From a virus, in IMG/VR virus record IMGVR_UViG_3300020183_000477, positions 1 to 23,333 of that record: a stretch of DNA of 23,333 nt; one strand, given 5' to 3'. Numbering within the stretch: the stretch's first letter is position 1; every line of letters begins with the position of its first letter. The translations under genes and the position numbers were made by a program. The notes under the pieces are model-generated. The model saw nothing but the letters and a program-made list of their open reading frames with translations. It had not been told where the DNA came from and did no database searches. This document shows positions 1,000-18,021 of this stretch, piece after piece.

Positions 1000-2100
1000 T
1001 TAACATTGAGCTTGAGATTGTATAGTTAATCCACCAAAACTTTCTGTTCCATCAATTAAACATCCTGTGCCTACAGTTCCACCTGGACTAACTGTAGTTC
1101 CAGTTGGATTTCCATTACAATCTGTGGCACTCCAAGTAATACTACCACCCGCGTTGTTTACTAAAGTATAAGCTGTACATGTAGGTATTGGTGTTTCTGT
1201 TGGTGTTGGTGTTATTGTAGGGGTTGGAGTTATTGTAGGTGTTGCTGTAGGTGTTGCGGTTGGTGTTGCAGTTGGTGTTGCAGTTGGTGTTGGAGTTATT
1301 GTAGGTGTTGCGGTTGGTGTTGCAGTTGGTGTTGCAGTTGGTGCTACAGTTGGTGTAGGTGTTGCAGTTGGTGTTGCAGTTGGTGTTGCAGTTGGTGTAG
1401 CTGTAGGAGTGGATGTTGGTGTTGATGTTGGAGTAGGAGTTGGAGTAGGAGTTGGAGTGGGAGTAGGAGTTGGGGTTGGCATAAATCCATCAGGAATTAT
1501 ACTTAATACAGCTATATTTTGCTCATAAAATACATTACCAATATATGAACTTTGAGATAGTAATGTTCCAATAGATGAACTCACATTACTACCACTAAAA
1601 CGTAAATTATAATTTCCATCATCAAAAATTTTATAAGTAGCTGATGAAGCACTTATATATGATAATTCTAAAGTAGTTGGTAATATTTTATCACCAGTTA
1701 ATTGGCGTGGGAAATTAATAACATAAATTAATGATCCATTTCCAGTTGGAAAAAATTTTATTGTATCTAAATTACCTAATTCAATAAATCCATTATAATA
1801 TGAAGATGTAGATAAAGTACCATCATTAAAAATAGTACCTTGCATTGAACTTGTATTAACATATGTTGGTAAAAAGTTAGGATAATAAGTTGTGTTTATC
1901 ATGTCATAAACTAAACGATCATATTGACCATTAGTCTCAAGCTCATTATGTGGATCAAATAATGAACTAGTGAACTTAACACCTGCATTTACTGTGATTT
2001 GAAAGTCAGTTAAAGACCCAGATAATATATTCCAGCTTTTATTTGCTGTATATGGAACTACAAATGAGTCTGATACATTAATTCGTTTAAACACTGACAT
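1000..2100 (-). CDS. Adhesin-like virion protein with Pro-Thr stalk and four-cysteine C-terminal domain
   Basis: The protein has 366 residues in three parts. Residues 1-206 are a Ser/Tyr/Asn-rich beta-type domain that shares elements with the neighbouring 344-residue protein ('DD..', 'SYIG', and a closing 'IIPDG' comparable to 'MIPDEG' there). Residues 208 to about 306 are an almost pure Pro-Thr alternation with Ala, Ser, Ile and Val substitutions. Residues 308-366 form a compact domain with cysteines at 308, 328, 347 and 366 and a 'SPGGTV' turn. A rigid extended Pro-Thr stalk presenting a disulfide-bonded tip suggests a receptor-binding or surface-decoration protein. That role is inference, since no binding family is recognised. 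No signal peptide is present, consistent with a virion part. The gene starts 10 bases after the stop of its upstream neighbour. Confidence 0.65.
1182..1479 (-). repeat. Low-complexity Pro-Thr coding repeat
   Basis: About 300 bases consist of imperfect 6- and 12-base units. The commonest plus-strand unit is GTTGGTGTTGCA, which encodes ATPT on the minus strand. The tract encodes the Pro-Thr stalk of the 366-residue protein and is in frame throughout. Unit number is likely to vary by slippage or recombination, and short-read assemblies could miscount it. Confidence 0.9.
1246..1343 (-). repeat. 44-base perfect direct repeat inside the Pro-Thr tract
   Basis: Bases 1246-1289 are repeated exactly at 1300-1343, a period of 54 bases (18 codons). 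This is a higher-order duplication on top of the 12-base units and indicates recent expansion of the stalk by whole codons. Confidence 0.8.
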
Positions 2101-10387: not shown

Positions 10388-10981
10388 TTATTTCAATAAA
10401 TTGTAGTATTCTTTAAAGTGTTTTTGGCGGTCTGGTAAACCAATTGTACCTCCATTAACACATTTAGTCACAGCTAATACAGATGCATCAGAAGCATCAA
10501 CACATTTACCTAAGCAATTCTTATGAAAAAACCAAGCAGCTGATAATAATGGATATTTTGTTGCTACTAAATCTGGTGTTTCAACTAAATTTTCAGGAAC
10601 AACTTTATCAAATTCAATGTAGTTAGCTTTACCAGTTAATTGAATATAGCCACGGCCACGGAATTTATAACCTTCACCTGTAGCTTCAGCACCATTACCC
10701 ATACGTCCCCCATAAACTAAATTAGCAATTTTTTCTGGTTTACGCTCATATAATTTAGCTTTATCTTCTGTTGGGAAGTATTTTTTAAATATTGTCAATA
10801 AACCTTTAGCTCCATAGTTTAAGTTTTCATTAACTACTTTAAAACCACCTGATTCATGTCCACATTGAGATAAAAAATGAGACAACTTAACAGCTGTGTC
10901 AATTTTGAATTTTTCCATTACCTCAGGAATTTGAGTTATAACACCATCTGGAATGTGTCCTTTAAGTTTATTTAAGTCCAT
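10388..10981 (-). CDS. GH19-type endolysin (chitinase-fold peptidoglycan hydrolase)
   Basis: The 197-residue protein is a single glycoside hydrolase family 19 domain. 'LSQCGHESGGF' (37-47) contains the proposed general-acid Glu43. 'NENLNYGAKGLLTIFKKYFP' (51-70) and the invariant-type 'GRGYIQLTGKANY' (109-121) line the substrate cleft, and 'GLPDRQKHFKEY' closes the domain. Length and lack of a signal peptide or cell-wall-binding module fit a phage endolysin that cleaves the glycan strands of peptidoglycan at the end of infection. The fold is shared with chitinases. No holin is visible next to it. It lies 11 bases downstream of gp6 and is last in its transcription unit, so it is probably expressed with late baseplate genes. 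A virion-associated role is an alternative. Confidence 0.9.
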   Translation of the reverse strand: MDLNKLKGHIPDGVITQIPEVMEKFKIDTAVKLSHFLSQCGHESGGFKVVNENLNYGAKGLLTIFKKYFPTEDKAKLYERKPEKIANLVYGGRMGNGAEATGEGYKFRGRGYIQLTGKANYIEFDKVVPENLVETPDLVATKYPLLSAAWFFHKNCLGKCVDASDASVLAVTKCVNGGTIGLPDRQKHFKEYYNLLK

Positions 10982-10992
10982 ATATTTAAATT

Positions 10993-12867
10993 TTAATAGG
11001 TTACTACTTTACCATAAATATCAGTGTCAGGAAATCTCACTTCAAAAATCATAGGATCAAGTGATGGGTAAATAACACCTTGTTTTGTGGCACCTTTTAT
11101 ATCATATGAGTATGGTGAATAATTACCTCCAGCTAGATTTGTAATATCAACATTAATTACTGATTGAACACCTTTAACAGCTCCAATTAAATTATATATA
11201 TTTGAATAAATAATTGGTTGATTAATTTGCCATTTATCTATATTAAAATAATTTTGTATTTCTGTTATAGCTTTAGTTAATACTTCTTGTGAATTATAAG
11301 CTGGTAAAACTGAGATATCAAAATTAATTTTTATATTAGCATAATAAGCATCTTTAATAATAATAGCATCACTAGCCATTTTATGATAAGATAAATATGT
11401 TTTTAGATTTTGCTTAATAGTATTAGAAGTTGTAGTTATTTTACCATTTATATCTGTTGATAAAACACAAATTGAAAGTGCTAATGGATTATTAGTGATA
11501 AAATTTTGTTTATCAGTGTCATTAGCAACTAAATAATTTTGAGATACATAAGCTTTACTTATATAACCAAATTTAGCTGGCATTGATAAAGCACGAACTA
11601 AGTAGTCAGCTTTAGTTACATTCCTATTTTGAGTTGGAAAATTAGCTAAAGCTTGTAAACGTATTTGTTCTGTTGTTTCACCAGGTCCACCACCTGATGA
11701 TGGTTCTGGATTATTGAAACGAAGTGAGTTTTCAACTATTGTTAAAATAGAATTATTTAAATTAAAATTATCTACAGTTATATTAACAACACTTCCTAAT
11801 CCAATATCATCAGATGGTAAATTAGCTTCTGCTCCTCCTCCAACTAAATAAGTCACTGTTAAAGTAGTGTTTGAAGGAGCAACACCATATTCATTTGTAT
11901 ATTGAAAGTTAGATGGATCATAAGCCATATTTAATTTACTAATACCATCTACTAAACCTATACCAACATTATCTGGATTTGGAATAATAACTTCATCTGG
12001 TGATGATGTTACACCACTTCCAAATTCTAAAAGTAAATTATTATCATCATTAAAACGAGTTACAAAACGTCTATCTACTTTTTTAAGACGTAATAAGAAA
12101 CAAGCATTATCATTATCATTATAATAATTAGGCTCATTCATAGATATATTTAATGTTTCATCAAATATAGTATCTTGAGCTAAATAAGGTACTTCATAAT
12201 ATTGATTATTTTCACTGTCAGTCACACTTAATACTTGAATAATATTTGAATCATTAATAACAACAGTTGGAAATTGTTCAGGATTACCAAAATTAAATGT
12301 AGTTGTTTTAATTTGTCCTGATATTGCTTCAACTTGTTTTTTAAGTAAATAATATTGTGGATTAGTAGTACCTGTATAATATTGATATATTGTTATAGTT
12401 GTTGGATCAAATGAAGATGAAAATCTAAAATTAACAAGATCTTGAGTTATAAAAGTAATATTTGGTTTAGATATAGATTTAACACTAGAATTTTTACCTA
12501 ATCTTAAAGTATATCGAAAATCAGGAGCATAATTAGGTGCTCCATCAGAAGGTAATAATTGATAAACATCTAAATTAACTGTTGAAACTGATGTTATTTT
12601 GGGTCTGTATCCTAAAGCATAAGCTAAAGCTATAATATTTTTTCTCTCTTGAGCATATAGTAATAATGTTTCTTGTAATTGAGTATCAGTGTAAAATGAT
12701 AAAATATCACCTATATAAGCAGCCATTTCTATAAACATATTTCCAGGAGCAGATGGACTAAAGTCCATGTAATTATTCTGGAAGTAGGTTCTAGCATAAT
12801 TAATTAAGTCTTGCTTTAATGTATTAAAGTCTTTATCAAAATATTTTATATCAGGTACATTTGCCAT
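10993..12867 (-). CDS. gp6: Baseplate wedge protein, gp6-like (baseplate J family)
   Basis: The 624-residue protein has the N-terminal hallmark of T4 gp6-type wedge proteins: 'FNTLKQDLINYARTYFQ' (14-30), then 'DFSPSAPGNMFIEMAAYIGD' (35-54), 'LLLYAQERKNIIALAYALGY' (68-87) and 'RPKITS'. A central region with 'ETTEQIRLQALANFPTQNRN' followed by 'VTKADYL' is typical of the baseplate-J-like family, as is the C-terminal 'ITEIQNYFNIDKWQINQPI' stretch. gp6 dimers form the inner ring that joins the wedges around the hub and drive the change of baseplate shape on contraction. Length is close to T4 gp6 (about 660). It directly follows gp25, 2 bases away, the same order as in T4. Confidence 0.93.
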   Translation of the reverse strand: MANVPDIKYFDKDFNTLKQDLINYARTYFQNNYMDFSPSAPGNMFIEMAAYIGDILSFYTDTQLQETLLLYAQERKNIIALAYALGYRPKITSVSTVNLDVYQLLPSDGAPNYAPDFRYTLRLGKNSSVKSISKPNITFITQDLVNFRFSSSFDPTTITIYQYYTGTTNPQYYLLKKQVEAISGQIKTTTFNFGNPEQFPTVVINDSNIIQVLSVTDSENNQYYEVPYLAQDTIFDETLNISMNEPNYYNDNDNACFLLRLKKVDRRFVTRFNDDNNLLLEFGSGVTSSPDEVIIPNPDNVGIGLVDGISKLNMAYDPSNFQYTNEYGVAPSNTTLTVTYLVGGGAEANLPSDDIGLGSVVNITVDNFNLNNSILTIVENSLRFNNPEPSSGGGPGETTEQIRLQALANFPTQNRNVTKADYLVRALSMPAKFGYISKAYVSQNYLVANDTDKQNFITNNPLALSICVLSTDINGKITTTSNTIKQNLKTYLSYHKMASDAIIIKDAYYANIKINFDISVLPAYNSQEVLTKAITEIQNYFNIDKWQINQPIIYSNIYNLIGAVKGVQSVINVDITNLAGGNYSPYSYDIKGATKQGVIYPSLDPMIFEVRFPDTDIYGKVVTY

Positions 12868-12869
12868 TA

Positions 12870-13289
12870 TTATCTGCTTAAATTAGTTGTTGAAACATTT
12901 ATCACTAAATTATCATTTTGGTTATTAATAGAGTATTCTAAAACTAAATTAATAAGATTTAAATCTGATTGTTTTTTAATTATTATATCTCTAATAATAA
13001 TATTAGGTATAAATGCTATTATTTCTGTCTCTAATCTAGCTGCTACACTATCAAAAGTTGTATCTGGTTCAAATAGAGATGCTCTTAAATTTCCACCAAA
13101 TTGAGGATTAAAAAAACGCTCACCTTTATCTGTTAATATATAATTTATTAAATTAGATTTAACTTGTTCTTTAGTTGTAAATGTTTGATTAAAAACATTA
13201 GTGTTATTATTAAATAAAACATTAATACCAATGCCCTTTTTTTGGCCTACATCTTGTGGGTTAAGTCTATATGCGGGTCTATTTAACAT
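12870..13289 (-). CDS. gp25: Baseplate wedge protein, gp25-like
   Basis: The 139-residue protein belongs to the GPW/gp25 family found in contractile tails and related injection systems. The diagnostic motif 'ILTDKGERFFNPQFGGNLRA' (51-70), followed by 'LFEP', is complete, and it is preceded by 'NLINYILT'. gp25 sits at the inner baseplate next to gp6, where it links to the sheath and helps start sheath assembly. The ATG overlaps the stop of the upstream gene by one base (TAATG), implying translational coupling. Length matches the family (about 130). Confidence 0.93.
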   Translation of the reverse strand: MLNRPAYRLNPQDVGQKKGIGINVLFNNNTNVFNQTFTTKEQVKSNLINYILTDKGERFFNPQFGGNLRASLFEPDTTFDSVAARLETEIIAFIPNIIIRDIIIKKQSDLNLINLVLEYSINNQNDNLVINVSTTNLSR

Positions 13290-13761: not shown

Positions 13762-14955
13762 TTATCCAAGTATTAACTTAAGTTCTTCAATTAATTCATC
13801 AGCTTTACGTATTTTACTAGGAGCTGTTTGAGTTATTTTCATTTTACTAAAAGTATCATAAGCAATAGCTTGTAAATCACCAGCTGGTGTTGTAATTACT
13901 TCAATAGTATAATCACGAGTACCATTATTATATATAGTTGAATCAGTATTATCTTGTTTAGATTTACTAGAATCACCATCAACATTTAAAGCTATATTTA
14001 TGTTTGTGTTAAAACTTAATCTCTCAACTTTAAATTTAGCTCTAGTTAATGCTTGTTGAAATGTTCTTAATATAGTTTGAACAAATGTTATTAATAAAAT
14101 ATAATTTTTAATTTTATCTTCTAAGTCTTTAGTTACTTGATCATCAGATTCTTTGCTGATTAAATATTGACCAGTAATTGGTTTAGATGGTGATGGACTG
14201 GCTAACTCAGGACCTGAAGAGATAGCTGTAGTTAGTAATTTCTTTTTTTTTACTTTTAACTTTAATTGAATAATAGCTAAAGCAGTTTTTATAAGTCTAA
14301 GAACAATAACTAAACTATCAAGGATAGTTTTCATTATCTTTATAACTTTTAATAAATTATTTTTTTTTCTTTCAAATTCTTGTTTATATGGAGAATAATC
14401 ACCTGAAAATTTAGGATAAAAAACTATAGCTACTTTATTTTTAACTTCCACACGACCTTTATTTTTTAATTTTCTTTTTGTTTTTTTAATTAAATTACTA
14501 ATAGTGGCGTTAATTACTATATCATTATTAATAAATTTAGTTAATAAAGATATAACAATACTAACAACAGCTGTTTTAGCTATTGATTTAGCCATATTTG
14601 CTTGATCTTGTAAAGAATTTGATAAATTATTAAATTTATCTTGTTGTTGTTGAGATATTTGATTTACTTTTTCTTCACTTTGTTTAACATTTTGTTGTTT
14701 TTCAGAGATAGAAGAAGCAGCAGGTGTAGTTGGTAAAGAAGAAGCAGCAGGTGTAGATAAAGTTGGACTTGATACTTTAACCATTTGATCAACACCAGAT
14801 CCATAATTATCTCTTAAAGCAACTTTAGCTATTCGTACTAAATCAGCTTCTGTTGATGTTGGAGAATTGTTACTATATATTGATTTTCCATTATCAAAAA
14901 CTGTAATAGTTTGATTGAAGCCTGATTTTTTTATTTCATATGTAAATTTGGGCAT
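13762..14955 (-). CDS. Baseplate-cluster protein with long hydrophobic helices, function unknown
   Basis: The protein has 397 residues. An N-terminal beta-type domain (1 to about 60) is followed by an Ala/Pro/Ser linker with a duplicated 'TPAASS' motif (68-82) and a Gln-rich helix. Strongly hydrophobic stretches lie at about 122-140, 201-234 (flanked by 'KVKKKKLL') and 285-307. The C-terminal part is again mixed beta ('FNTNINIALNVDGD', 'YTIEVITTPAGDLQAIAYD') and ends in a helix. The hydrophobic helices with basic flanks could enter a membrane, or pack as a bundle inside the hub or tail tube. It follows the spike-like gene by 2 bases, so a role in the hub, for example a membrane-inserting component, is plausible but unproven. 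I do not recognise the family. Confidence 0.5.
   Translation of the reverse strand: MPKFTYEIKKSGFNQTITVFDNGKSIYSNNSPTSTEADLVRIAKVALRDNYGSGVDQMVKVSSPTLSTPAASSLPTTPAASSISEKQQNVKQSEEKVNQISQQQQDKFNNLSNSLQDQANMAKSIAKTAVVSIVISLLTKFINNDIVINATISNLIKKTKRKLKNKGRVEVKNKVAIVFYPKFSGDYSPYKQEFERKKNNLLKVIKIMKTILDSLVIVLRLIKTALAIIQLKLKVKKKKLLTTAISSGPELASPSPSKPITGQYLISKESDDQVTKDLEDKIKNYILLITFVQTILRTFQQALTRAKFKVERLSFNTNINIALNVDGDSSKSKQDNTDSTIYNNGTRDYTIEVITTPAGDLQAIAYDTFSKMKITQTAPSKIRKADELIEELKLILG
14710..14756 (-). repeat. 20-base direct repeat, period 27
   Basis: The plus-strand 20-mer AGAAGAAGCAGCAGGTGTAG occurs at 14710-14729 and again at 14737-14756. In the encoded protein it duplicates an Ala/Ser/Pro linker motif (STPAASS and TTPAASS), an in-frame 9-codon duplication. 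Confidence 0.85.
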
Positions 14956-14957
14956 AA

Positions 14958-15398
14958 TTAGATTGTAAATGATTTTTCTGATTTGAAATTAATCATATCA
15001 GCTTTAACTTGAAATAATTTTCCTTTTAACATTGTTGTAGCTGGAATTAATAAAGCTGCCATTAGTGGACCTGGTGCTATGGCAGCTGCTTGTACCATGT
15101 CACTATATGTTGATATAGCATCTATAAGATCATTTAATACTCCTTCTAACTCATCTGCTTTAGTAATTGGCTCTGCTTGGCCATTTATATCTAAACCTAA
15201 CTGCATTTTAGGAGCATTAACTAAAAACATATTTTCCTCATTATCACTATCTTCAATACCCACATCAATAGTTACTTTATCACCTGCTGATAAATTAATA
15301 TAATGTTTAGCAGTTATAAAAATATCATTAGAACGAGCATTAAATACTAATCGTCCTGATGATAATAATATTTGTTCTTTATTGTAAGTTTTAGCCAT
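14958..15398 (-). CDS. Small hub- or spike-like protein (VgrG/gp5 C-terminal-type repeats)
   Basis: The protein has 146 residues. The first half alternates short beta strands and turns ('ILLSSGRLVFNARSNDIFIT', then 'AKHYINLSAGDKVTIDVG'). This pattern resembles the part of VgrG and gp5 proteins that leads into the central spike beta-helix. The second half is helical with an Ala-rich, hydrophobic segment ('MVQAAAIAPGPLMAALLIPA', about 102-121). It lies between the SGNH/C39 gene and the 397-residue gene, inside the hub block. It may be a separate equivalent of the gp5 C-terminal fragment. The family match is by eye only. Confidence 0.45.
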   Translation of the reverse strand: MAKTYNKEQILLSSGRLVFNARSNDIFITAKHYINLSAGDKVTIDVGIEDSDNEENMFLVNAPKMQLGLDINGQAEPITKADELEGVLNDLIDAISTYSDMVQAAAIAPGPLMAALLIPATTMLKGKLFQVKADMINFKSEKSFTI

Positions 15399-15402
15399 TG
15401 TT

Positions 15403-17043
15403 TTAAGAAATATAAATTATATCATAGTTTCTTCCATTATCTGAAGGTTGGTCTGTTCCTAAACATACTGTAGAATTAATAACTTGATCAGAAAAAGCAA
15501 TTTTTTGTGATGAAGGATTATGAATTATAATGTTACCATCTATAGTTATACCTACAGCTGTGACATAATGACCTCTACTAAAATTTGTAGTTCCACGTAT
15601 TCTTATAACTATAGGTCTTTGAATTTTTATTAATCTATCTTTATAAGCTTCAAAAATTTGAACTGTAGTTTTTTTAGTTGGATCATTTTCTCTTATTAAA
15701 CTTGGAAAATCTTCTTTAAGTTTTCTAAAATTCAAATTATTACCATCTAGAATATATGGAGGTATTCTTTTATAAGAAGGTTTATTATAAAACATCTCTT
15801 GAGTTATATTAACATCAGATGCTTGAGCTATCATTGTAATTGATGTTACAAGACATCCCCAGTTATTATACTGAGGTATATATGGTGTTTTATCTCCAAA
15901 ATAAAATTGACATTGGTCTGGACTAATACGGTCCCCATCTAGTGTATAATTTTTAGTTAGAGTAGCTTTTTTGTTTACTTTTGATACACGTTCACGTTTT
16001 ATTGTTTGTCCTTTAATTCTAGTAACAAAATATTTACTATAAATAGTAGGATTAGTATAGTCAATTGTAAGAACACCTGGATCTGTTGGTGTTATTATAT
16101 CATATAATTGAGTTGGTTGTTCTTCAATTGGAAGATTATTAAATTCATCATCATATAAATTCTCTTCTTCTAATTCAATTATTGTTGATTCTTTTATGTT
16201 AGTTTTTTCTATAGTTGTTTTTTGTTGAGTTTGTTGTTTTATAACAGCGGGAACAAGTGTTGAACTTATAATTTCATCTATTTCTTTACCAACAGCTACT
16301 ATACCTGGTGTTTTATCATTAGGATGATTAGATGAATATCCAATATCATTTTTTAATTTAAAAACTCCAACATCAGTAAATTTCTTATAATAAGGTGTTA
16401 AAGTATCAACTTTTGTATTTTTAAGATTACCCCATCCATAACTCCCACCAAACACATATAATCCATTAGTAGCACTAGGAAATTTTTCTTTGACTACATC
16501 AATAAAATCTTTAATACTAGTTGTTTCTTGATATCCATCATTAGTACCAATATTGATAAAAACTTTAACTACTTCTTGATTACCAATATATTTTTTTATA
16601 GCCTCATTTAAGTTCTTTAAATTCCAACCTACTTTCCATAATACACCTTGTGGTCCTATAGGTTCTAATAGTTTAGAGTTAGCTTTAATTGACTCTGTCT
16701 GACTATCACCTATTATAATTGCTTTGCCTGGTTTTTGTGGGATATTATTAGTATTAACTATATCATTATTATTTTGTATATTTAATGATTGTTGATTTGT
16801 GTTACCAATATTAACATTAATAGTTCCTTCTTTAGTTATAGCTATATATGATAATGTATTATTTGGATCAGCAGGTTGTACTTTTTTATTTGGGTCTGGT
16901 GTTTGATTAGGATCATCAATTAATGGATTATCACCTGAATATATATAAGTGTTTCCATTAGTTAGAGTTATTCCATTAGCATCAGTTCCTTCAATACTTA
17001 TATTTCCACTACTAACTTGTCTAAAATACTTTTTTTCAGCCAT
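15403..17043 (-). CDS. Baseplate-region SGNH hydrolase and C39-like cysteine peptidase fusion
   Basis: The 546-residue protein has three parts. Residues 1-105 are low-complexity and beta-prone. Residues about 107-262 form an SGNH/GDSL-type hydrolase: block I 'IIGDSQTES' with nucleophile Ser114, block III 'NIGTND' with Asn168, and block V 'SSNHP' with His240. The aspartate normally three residues before that histidine is Ser237 here. After a Gln/Thr/Glu-rich linker (about 265-320), residues about 366-546 form a papain-like C39-type peptidase: 'QYNNWGCLVTS' with Cys397, 'GHYVTAVG' with His492 and 'IHNPSS' with Asn509. SGNH enzymes remove acetyl or other ester groups from glycans, and C39-type peptidases cut peptide bonds. 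Adjacent to a tail lysozyme gene, the protein probably acts on the host envelope during entry. That role is inference. Confidence 0.8.
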   Translation of the reverse strand: MAEKKYFRQVSSGNISIEGTDANGITLTNGNTYIYSGDNPLIDDPNQTPDPNKKVQPADPNNTLSYIAITKEGTINVNIGNTNQQSLNIQNNNDIVNTNNIPQKPGKAIIIGDSQTESIKANSKLLEPIGPQGVLWKVGWNLKNLNEAIKKYIGNQEVVKVFINIGTNDGYQETTSIKDFIDVVKEKFPSATNGLYVFGGSYGWGNLKNTKVDTLTPYYKKFTDVGVFKLKNDIGYSSNHPNDKTPGIVAVGKEIDEIISSTLVPAVIKQQTQQKTTIEKTNIKESTIIELEEENLYDDEFNNLPIEEQPTQLYDIITPTDPGVLTIDYTNPTIYSKYFVTRIKGQTIKRERVSKVNKKATLTKNYTLDGDRISPDQCQFYFGDKTPYIPQYNNWGCLVTSITMIAQASDVNITQEMFYNKPSYKRIPPYILDGNNLNFRKLKEDFPSLIRENDPTKKTTVQIFEAYKDRLIKIQRPIVIRIRGTTNFSRGHYVTAVGITIDGNIIIHNPSSQKIAFSDQVINSTVCLGTDQPSDNGRNYDIIYIS

Positions 17044-17055
17044 AATTTATATTAA

Positions 17056-18021
17056 TTAAGTCCAATGTAAAAGATCATTAGCATCATTAAATCTATTATA
17101 AAAATCATTAGCGTATCTACTTCTTTTAGAAGGAGAAAATGTGCCACGTTTATGACTTTTTCCAGCTCTGTAAACATCTATTCCTTCAGTACAACCATAA
17201 CATCTTTCAACTGTAGAAGCAAAAAGATAGGCTGCTATATCAGCAGTTAATGGACTTGTATTGCTTACTGCTTTTGTAAAGTCATTATATGATCTTGTAA
17301 AAGAGACATCTGTTATAAAAGGTAATTGATGCTCAATTAATGATGTTCCTTGTGGAGGTGAAGCTAATTTTTTTATATCAAAGTATTTAGCATTCCATTG
17401 TATTAAACCATAGCTTGTAAAGCCATTAAGATCATCATATCCTTCACTTGGTTTAAATCCACATTCAGCTTGAATATTACCCATTATTCCAGCTGTTACT
17501 TCCTTAGATAAACCTAAATTTTTAAAATAATTTTTAACAATTAATTGATTATTAACTATTTCTTGTTTATTAGATATGGTTGACTTAGTTCCTATATCAT
17601 TATTACTATATGAATTAGTACTATTATCAATATCTCTATTTCCATTTGAAGGTATTGATGAATTATTATTAATAATCTGATTAATAGTAACTGGGTTTAA
17701 ATAATATGATATTCTTTCATATTGAGACAATATGTCACCAACTGTATTGTTTGGTCCTTTTAATAAAGGAACAATATCACCTATTCCAGGTGTTTGAGTA
17801 TTATTAGTATAAAATGGAACAGCTTTACCTGTTACAGTAGATGATAAATTATCTCCTATTGGTTTATAAATTATAGATCGATCTAAATTTGTCTTTACAA
17901 CAAATCCATATGAGTATGGTTCTTTATTTTTATTAAAAATAGAGTTTTTTCCTCCACTAAATCCATTATTATTTTTATATTCAGTTTTTCCTCCAGTAGT
18001 TATGGTATTATTAGTTCCCAT
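17056..18021 (-). CDS. Baseplate hub protein with OB-like domain and phage tail lysozyme domain
   Basis: The protein has 321 residues. Residues about 35-110 ('YSYGFVVKTNLDRS', 'GKAVPFYTNNTQTPGIGDIV') look like the small beta-barrel (OB fold) that starts gp5-type hub proteins. An Asn/Ser-rich linker (115-155) follows. Residues about 160-315 match the phage tail lysozyme family: 'YFKNLGLSKEVTAGIMGNIQ', then 'AECGFKP' with the likely catalytic Glu186, and 'SYGLIQWN' (203-210). It would puncture and locally digest peptidoglycan when the tail contracts, the job of T4 gp5. Unlike gp5 there is no C-terminal beta-helix in the same chain; the following genes may supply it. The start overlaps the upstream gene by 11 bases in another frame, which suggests coupling. 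Confidence 0.8.
   Translation of the reverse strand: MGTNNTITTGGKTEYKNNNGFSGGKNSIFNKNKEPYSYGFVVKTNLDRSIIYKPIGDNLSSTVTGKAVPFYTNNTQTPGIGDIVPLLKGPNNTVGDILSQYERISYYLNPVTINQIINNNSSIPSNGNRDIDNSTNSYSNNDIGTKSTISNKQEIVNNQLIVKNYFKNLGLSKEVTAGIMGNIQAECGFKPSEGYDDLNGFTSYGLIQWNAKYFDIKKLASPPQGTSLIEHQLPFITDVSFTRSYNDFTKAVSNTSPLTADIAAYLFASTVERCYGCTEGIDVYRAGKSHKRGTFSPSKRSRYANDFYNRFNDANDLLHWT

Follow-up and report, generated by a model that had tools for sequence, protein, structure and literature searches.

A putative middle segment of a split phage tail spike bearing SGNH-like and C39-type peptidase domains

The window analysed here is a 23.3-kb virus record (IMGVR_UViG_3300020183_000477, 23,333 nt). Its minus strand carries an open reading frame of 546 residues with an ATG start (15403..17043), comprising a putative spike piece, an SGNH-like domain, a linker and a C39-type peptidase. 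The order of genes on this strand is a lysozyme gene (17056..18021), the 546-aa gene, genes of 146 aa (14958..15398), 397 aa (13762-14955) and 151 aa, a gp25-type baseplate wedge gene (12870..13289) and a gp6-type baseplate wedge gene (10993..12867). The upstream partner encodes a phage tail lysozyme in residues 158-311 (Pfam PF18013, E=4e-14), for which the best solved-structure match was phi29 gp13 (E=7e-4), and the T4-type nature of the baseplate context is confirmed by the gp25 and gp6 homologues. These results bear out a preliminary description of the locus, which had given this reading frame, placed it beside a tail lysozyme in a T4-type baseplate cluster and named S114, N168, H240, C397, H492 and N509 as catalytic residues, all of which are present. 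They also agree with its remark that it could match no described protein to such a combination in a T4-like hub: tblastn of the whole 546-aa protein returned no match among 50,697 phage records, and neither did the C39 domain or the SGNH-like domain (that of the window or that of a relative, L010) when searched against the same records. No relatives of the SGNH-like or C39 domain emerged when bacterial and archaeal genomes were scanned by pattern, so no host or prophage source was identified. An assembly chimera was considered and rejected as unlikely, since three other IMG/VR contigs carry the 546-aa protein at 100% identity. Loci for comparison (handles beginning with L) were gathered through relatives of gp6 and of the 146-aa gene and comprise about 40 IMG/VR contigs (~43), most of which cover the upstream part of the locus wholly or in part.

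Two further features of the region were observed. A GH19 chitinase-type endolysin gene lies directly after gp6 in the window (10388-10981) and likewise in the nearest relative, L005; in Microcystis phage Mel-JY01 a chitinase-type gene adjoins the spike gene, and L019 has none at the post-gp6 place. Tandem repeats with 12- to 54-base units (window 1172-1479) encode a long Pro-Thr(-Ala) linker in a 366-aa protein at 1000-2100, and slippage in these repeats could vary the length of that linker.

The C-terminal domain of the 546-aa protein (residues 367-546; 15406..15945, minus strand) is a C39-type cysteine peptidase, putatively papain-like in fold. Pfam Peptidase_C39_2 (PF13529) matched residues 386-510 at 32.1 bits (E=2e-7), above the gathering cut-off of 24. 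Q391, the likely oxyanion residue, precedes C397, H492 and N509 in the expected order, and all four are kept in the L019 relative, whose domain is 53-57% identical, with a dN/dS of 0.51 between the two domains. The best PDB profile match was 3erv, a putative C39-like peptidase (E=1.1).

Residues 104-262 (16258..16734, minus strand) make up the SGNH-like serine hydrolase domain, in which S114, G139, N168 and H240 occur in order and are invariant in L005 and L010. The pattern GDS...GxND...H[PLA] matched 4 of the 1,087 ORF segments of the loci compared, namely the 546-aa protein, its near relative in L005, the L010 domain and an independent SGNH-like domain on L121. Among shuffled ORFs the mean number of matches was 0.00, and only one of 200,000 shuffles of residues 100-270 matched the pattern. 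The L010 domain lies at the C-terminal end of a protein of 2,160 aa encoded by a 321-kb contig; it is 38% identical to the window domain and shares with it the stretch GSYGWGNLK. No SGNH-type Pfam model reached its cut-off (Lipase_GDSL, 13.4 bits vs 23.6, E=0.085). The L121 domain matched Lipase_GDSL_2 weakly (E=7e-5, below cut-off), and its similarity to the window domain was marginal, with 1 of 100 shuffles scoring as well.

An AlphaFold model of the SGNH-like domain alone showed the expected strand-helix order at low confidence (pLDDT 54, pTM 0.57), with part of the fold at very low confidence; the full-length model of the 546-aa protein (pLDDT 32.6) was unusable. Among the top PDB matches from Foldseek, the OatA C-terminal domain, BT3161 and a PAF-acetylhydrolase-like protein appeared alongside topoisomerases; a Tupanvirus SGNH protein headed the viral matches, and all of these had E>0.01. 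The VIA-align list is neither for nor against an SGNH assignment, because a beta-carbonic anhydrase came first with a Z similar to those of SGNH enzymes (5.0-5.8). The assignment is based on motifs, relatives and weak fold matches, and since no family profile reached its cut-off the domain is termed SGNH-like and not a confirmed member. Two hydrolases in one chain had been proposed in the preliminary description. The peptidase half of that proposal is upheld by a Pfam profile above cut-off; for the other half the motifs are as proposed, the low-confidence model has the strand-helix order expected of SGNH, the SGNH-type profiles stay below cut-off, no Foldseek match falls below E=0.001, and the fold is not proven.

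An Asp three residues ahead of the catalytic His is typical of SGNH hydrolases, though not universal. The 546-aa protein has S237 at this position and the L010 relative is also without the Asp; the canonical DxxH is found in the independent L121 domain only, as DGIH. With the usual catalytic Asp missing, the activity of the SGNH-like domain could be reduced or lost. This absence, and the very low confidence of part of the fold model, would fit a catalytically dead domain acting as a binding or spacer module, with the cysteine peptidase as the only active enzyme. We consider such a reading quite unlikely: Ser, Gly, Asn and His are invariant in an L010 domain only 38% identical, some SGNH esterases function with a Ser-His dyad, and the dN/dS of the SGNH-like domain (0.30) counts against a dead enzyme. 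Taken together with the value for the C39 domain (0.51), it suggests that both catalytic halves are under constraint.

The origin of the N-terminal residues was approached by comparison with isolated phages, of which Flavobacterium phage immuto (46%) and Microcystis phage Mel-JY01 (45%) are the closest by gp6. The equivalent position in immuto, upstream of gp25 and gp6, is occupied by a single 378-aa protein, and this was compared with profiles of three pieces from the window's clade. The N-terminal piece of the lysozyme gene (residues 1-125) matched immuto residues 14-124, in the N-terminal third (E=2e-4). The first part of the 546-aa protein, here called the anchor (residues 1-103; 16735..17043, minus strand), matched residues 144-241 (E=0.03, weak if taken alone), and the 146-aa gene matched residues 244-376, the C-terminal third (E=1e-10). 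The three window pieces are collinear with the immuto protein, and with 200 column-shuffled templates none of the three scores was attained even once. The N-terminal, middle and tip pieces are placed relative to immuto and not to T4 gp5. The immuto tip contains six copies of the motif [NSDG]A[KE] (at 260, 269, 277, 284, 292 and 299), one every 7-9 residues, a spacing that resembles the octads of T4 gp5C (PMC3004832). Neither the N-terminal spike piece nor the tip piece matched any Pfam or PDB profile, those of OB folds and beta-helices included; residues 1-125 of the lysozyme gene would presumably be the OB-like hub-binding part.

On these sequence comparisons the 546-aa protein is more plausibly interpreted as one part of a split tail spike; in the clade of the window a single spike gene appears to have become three, with enzymes at both junctions. 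We infer that the direction was a split, not a fusion, and the pieces would presumably still assemble together. With enzymes at both break points, separate genes would yield what T4 gp5 gains by chain cleavage, and the split would be an alternative to T4 proteolysis as a means of having wall enzyme and tip on separate chains.

In syntenic loci of related phages the slot proteins begin with counterparts of the first ~100 residues of the 546-aa protein. These loci show ~15 or more module combinations, a few of them from truncated contigs. The N-terminal gene carries a tail lysozyme, a SleB-type hydrolase (PF07486, above the Pfam cut-off), an alpha/beta-hydrolase-like domain (recognised by a GxSxG motif only), a short uncharacterised tail or no recognised module. 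The anchor gene carries C39 alone, SGNH-like plus C39, SGNH-like plus a large domain without family, a second C39-like domain (Pfam below cut-off), a CHAP-like domain (weak Pfam match, below cut-off), an M15-like domain (motif only), a tail lysozyme (PF18013, 75.8 bits) or large domains without family. Both the apparently spike-derived first ~100 residues and what appears, from these alignments, to be an exchangeable catalytic cassette had been missed in the preliminary description.

Several individual loci are of interest in their own right. The 2,160-aa protein of L010 (L010:1989-8471) ends in a tail lysozyme and the SGNH-like domain, its remainder has no family match, and it may be a very large hub protein. 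In L121 (L121:8606-9961) the hub slot has a second anchor-type gene, whose terminal domain shows the dual-specificity phosphatase motif HCLHGADRTG and a sub-cut-off match to Pfam DSPc (E=0.007); it would be unusual for the spike anchor of a phage to bear a phosphatase-like domain. A GxSxG-type domain (for example GFSRGG, GWSRGG or GFSLGG) replaces the lysozyme on the N-terminal piece at L106:7062-8066, L058:2210-3217, L119:7036-8040 and L056:1702-2832, and the two examples scanned with Pfam gave no match. A domain of ~280 residues with no significant family match lies between the anchor and the last enzyme in L068, L058, L106, L112, L119 and L121.

The nearest relative, L005, has the same anchor and SGNH-like domain as the window and a different C39-like C-terminal module. 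The two C-terminal modules are only ~24% identical, whereas the neighbouring proteins barely differ, and the module swap junction lies at residue ~317, within the acidic linker and lead-in (residues 263-366; 15946..16257, minus strand). Nucleotide identity between the two loci shifts near domain borders. It is 96-99% in the lysozyme and 70-84% in part of its N-terminal piece, 94% across the gene junction and the first 16 residues, mostly 76-83% in the anchor and 96-99% in the SGNH-like domain; it then falls to 82-86% in the linker and ~42% in the C-terminal module, and is 96% again in the gene that follows. Synonymous divergence is low in the SGNH-like domain (0.06) and the lysozyme (0.08) and higher in the N-terminal piece (0.27), gp6 (0.32) and the anchor (0.50), values consistent with a recent exchange of the SGNH-like and lysozyme modules. 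In a profile-profile comparison of the two alternative C-terminal peptidases, 5 of 100 shuffles scored as well, which is not significant, and common ancestry of the two is not claimed.

These exchanges bear on whether the C39 domain could be a maturation protease that trims a hub protein, in the manner of C39 leader peptidases and of T4 gp5 cleavage. The founding members of the C39 family are processing peptidases, which counts for such a role, as does the single cleavage of T4 gp5 during assembly (PMC3004832). We regard the role as very unlikely. The clade's spike already consists of separate chains, so a maturation cut is not needed, and one would expect a maturation protease and its target to change together, whereas here the C39 module has been swapped for one ~24% identical with neighbours barely changed. 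In relatives the slot holds tail lysozyme, CHAP-like or M15-like modules instead of C39, and the hub-protein processing that had been offered earlier as one possible function is disfavoured by these other cell-wall-enzyme types at the same position.

Our preferred reading, which we hold to be probable, is that the central spike is split over three genes and that the 546-aa protein is its middle segment, carrying an enzyme arm that cuts the wall after puncture. The anchor would have the lysozyme-bearing N-terminal piece on one side and the tip piece on the other, like the middle of the immuto chain, with the SGNH-like and C39 domains hanging from it. Tail contraction would carry the spike tip and the enzymes across the outer membrane. 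In the periplasm the lysozyme would cut glycan strands, the SGNH-like domain would remove esters, most likely muramic acid O-acetyl groups that otherwise hinder lysozyme, and the C39 domain would cut stem or bridge peptides. A periplasmic wall role is suggested by the lysozyme neighbour, by the other wall-enzyme types in the slot and by the precedent of the A-1(L) hub. The combination of ester, peptide and glycan cleavage at the tail tip, predicted when the locus was first described, fits this comparative anatomy.

The main rival to this reading is that the SGNH-like domain acts outside the cell, deacylating capsule or O-antigen at adsorption, so that only the C39 domain and the lysozyme would work on the wall. 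SGNH domains of phage tail fibres are indeed proven esterases (PMC13123978). The domain described here is attached to a spike-type anchor instead of a fibre, and all SGNH-bearing loci found (the window, L005, L121 and L010) also encode a tail lysozyme, including a direct fusion in L010, where a related tail lysozyme and the SGNH-like domain share one chain; with few independent cases this co-occurrence is a pattern and not a statistic. The central spike of T4 is buried in the baseplate until contraction, which also counts against action outside the cell, and we judge this rival to be unlikely.

Tail-tip wall hydrolases on a central spike are known; for the apparently split and rapidly exchanged form seen here, no description was found in the literature searched. 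In these modules esterase-like and peptidase domains are paired by nature, and the tail tip looks as if it were an interchangeable tool holder for cutting the host wall. Phage host range is usually ascribed to receptor-binding proteins. A conserved spike anchor with fast-exchanged enzymes suggests a second layer, in which phages adapt to peptidoglycan modification and cross-linking. A wider proposal, possible although we hold it tentatively, is that a freshwater lineage of large phages split its spike gene into three and that the break points became docking sites at which wall and envelope enzymes (lysozyme, SleB, SGNH-like, alpha/beta-hydrolase-like, C39, M15-like, CHAP-like and phosphatase-like) are swapped, tuning host range through periplasmic wall chemistry and not only through receptors.

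Several known systems resemble parts of this arrangement. In Bacillus phage phi29, gp13 pairs a lysozyme with a peptidase at the tail tip. The upstream lysozyme of the window matches this protein (PDB 3csq/3csr, 'Morphogenesis protein 1'; E=7e-4); unlike the window, gp13 has a peptidase of another class, belongs to another tail type and has neither an SGNH domain nor a spike anchor. SGNH-type esterases on tails are represented by G7C gp63.1, which deacetylates LPS, and by receptor-binding proteins of Klebsiella prophages, two of whose fibres hydrolyse p-nitrophenyl acetate (PMC13123978). Those enzymes reside on receptor-binding fibres and act on capsule or LPS, whereas in the window the domain is borne by a spike-type anchor, with a lysozyme and a peptidase as neighbours. 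The freshwater myophage A-1(L), a cyanophage, likewise has several wall hydrolases on its central hub; its hub protein gp15 combines a lysozyme domain with endoglucanase and peptidase domains, and the latter two activities were assayed (PMC10966104). The A-1(L) enzymes are in one hub protein, for which the portion consulted describes no SGNH domain, split spike or swapping (PMC10966104). In T4 gp5 the OB domain and the beta-helix flank the lysozyme, and cleavage at Ser351/Ala352 separates lysozyme from helix (PMC3004832). No sequence homology of the window spike pieces to gp5 was shown; the likeness is one of plan, with a wall hydrolase between the hub-binding and tip parts and with enzyme and tip becoming separate chains. 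Unlike in T4, the separation in the window is genetic, over three genes, there are two insertion points, and these hold a lysozyme together with SGNH-like and C39 domains.
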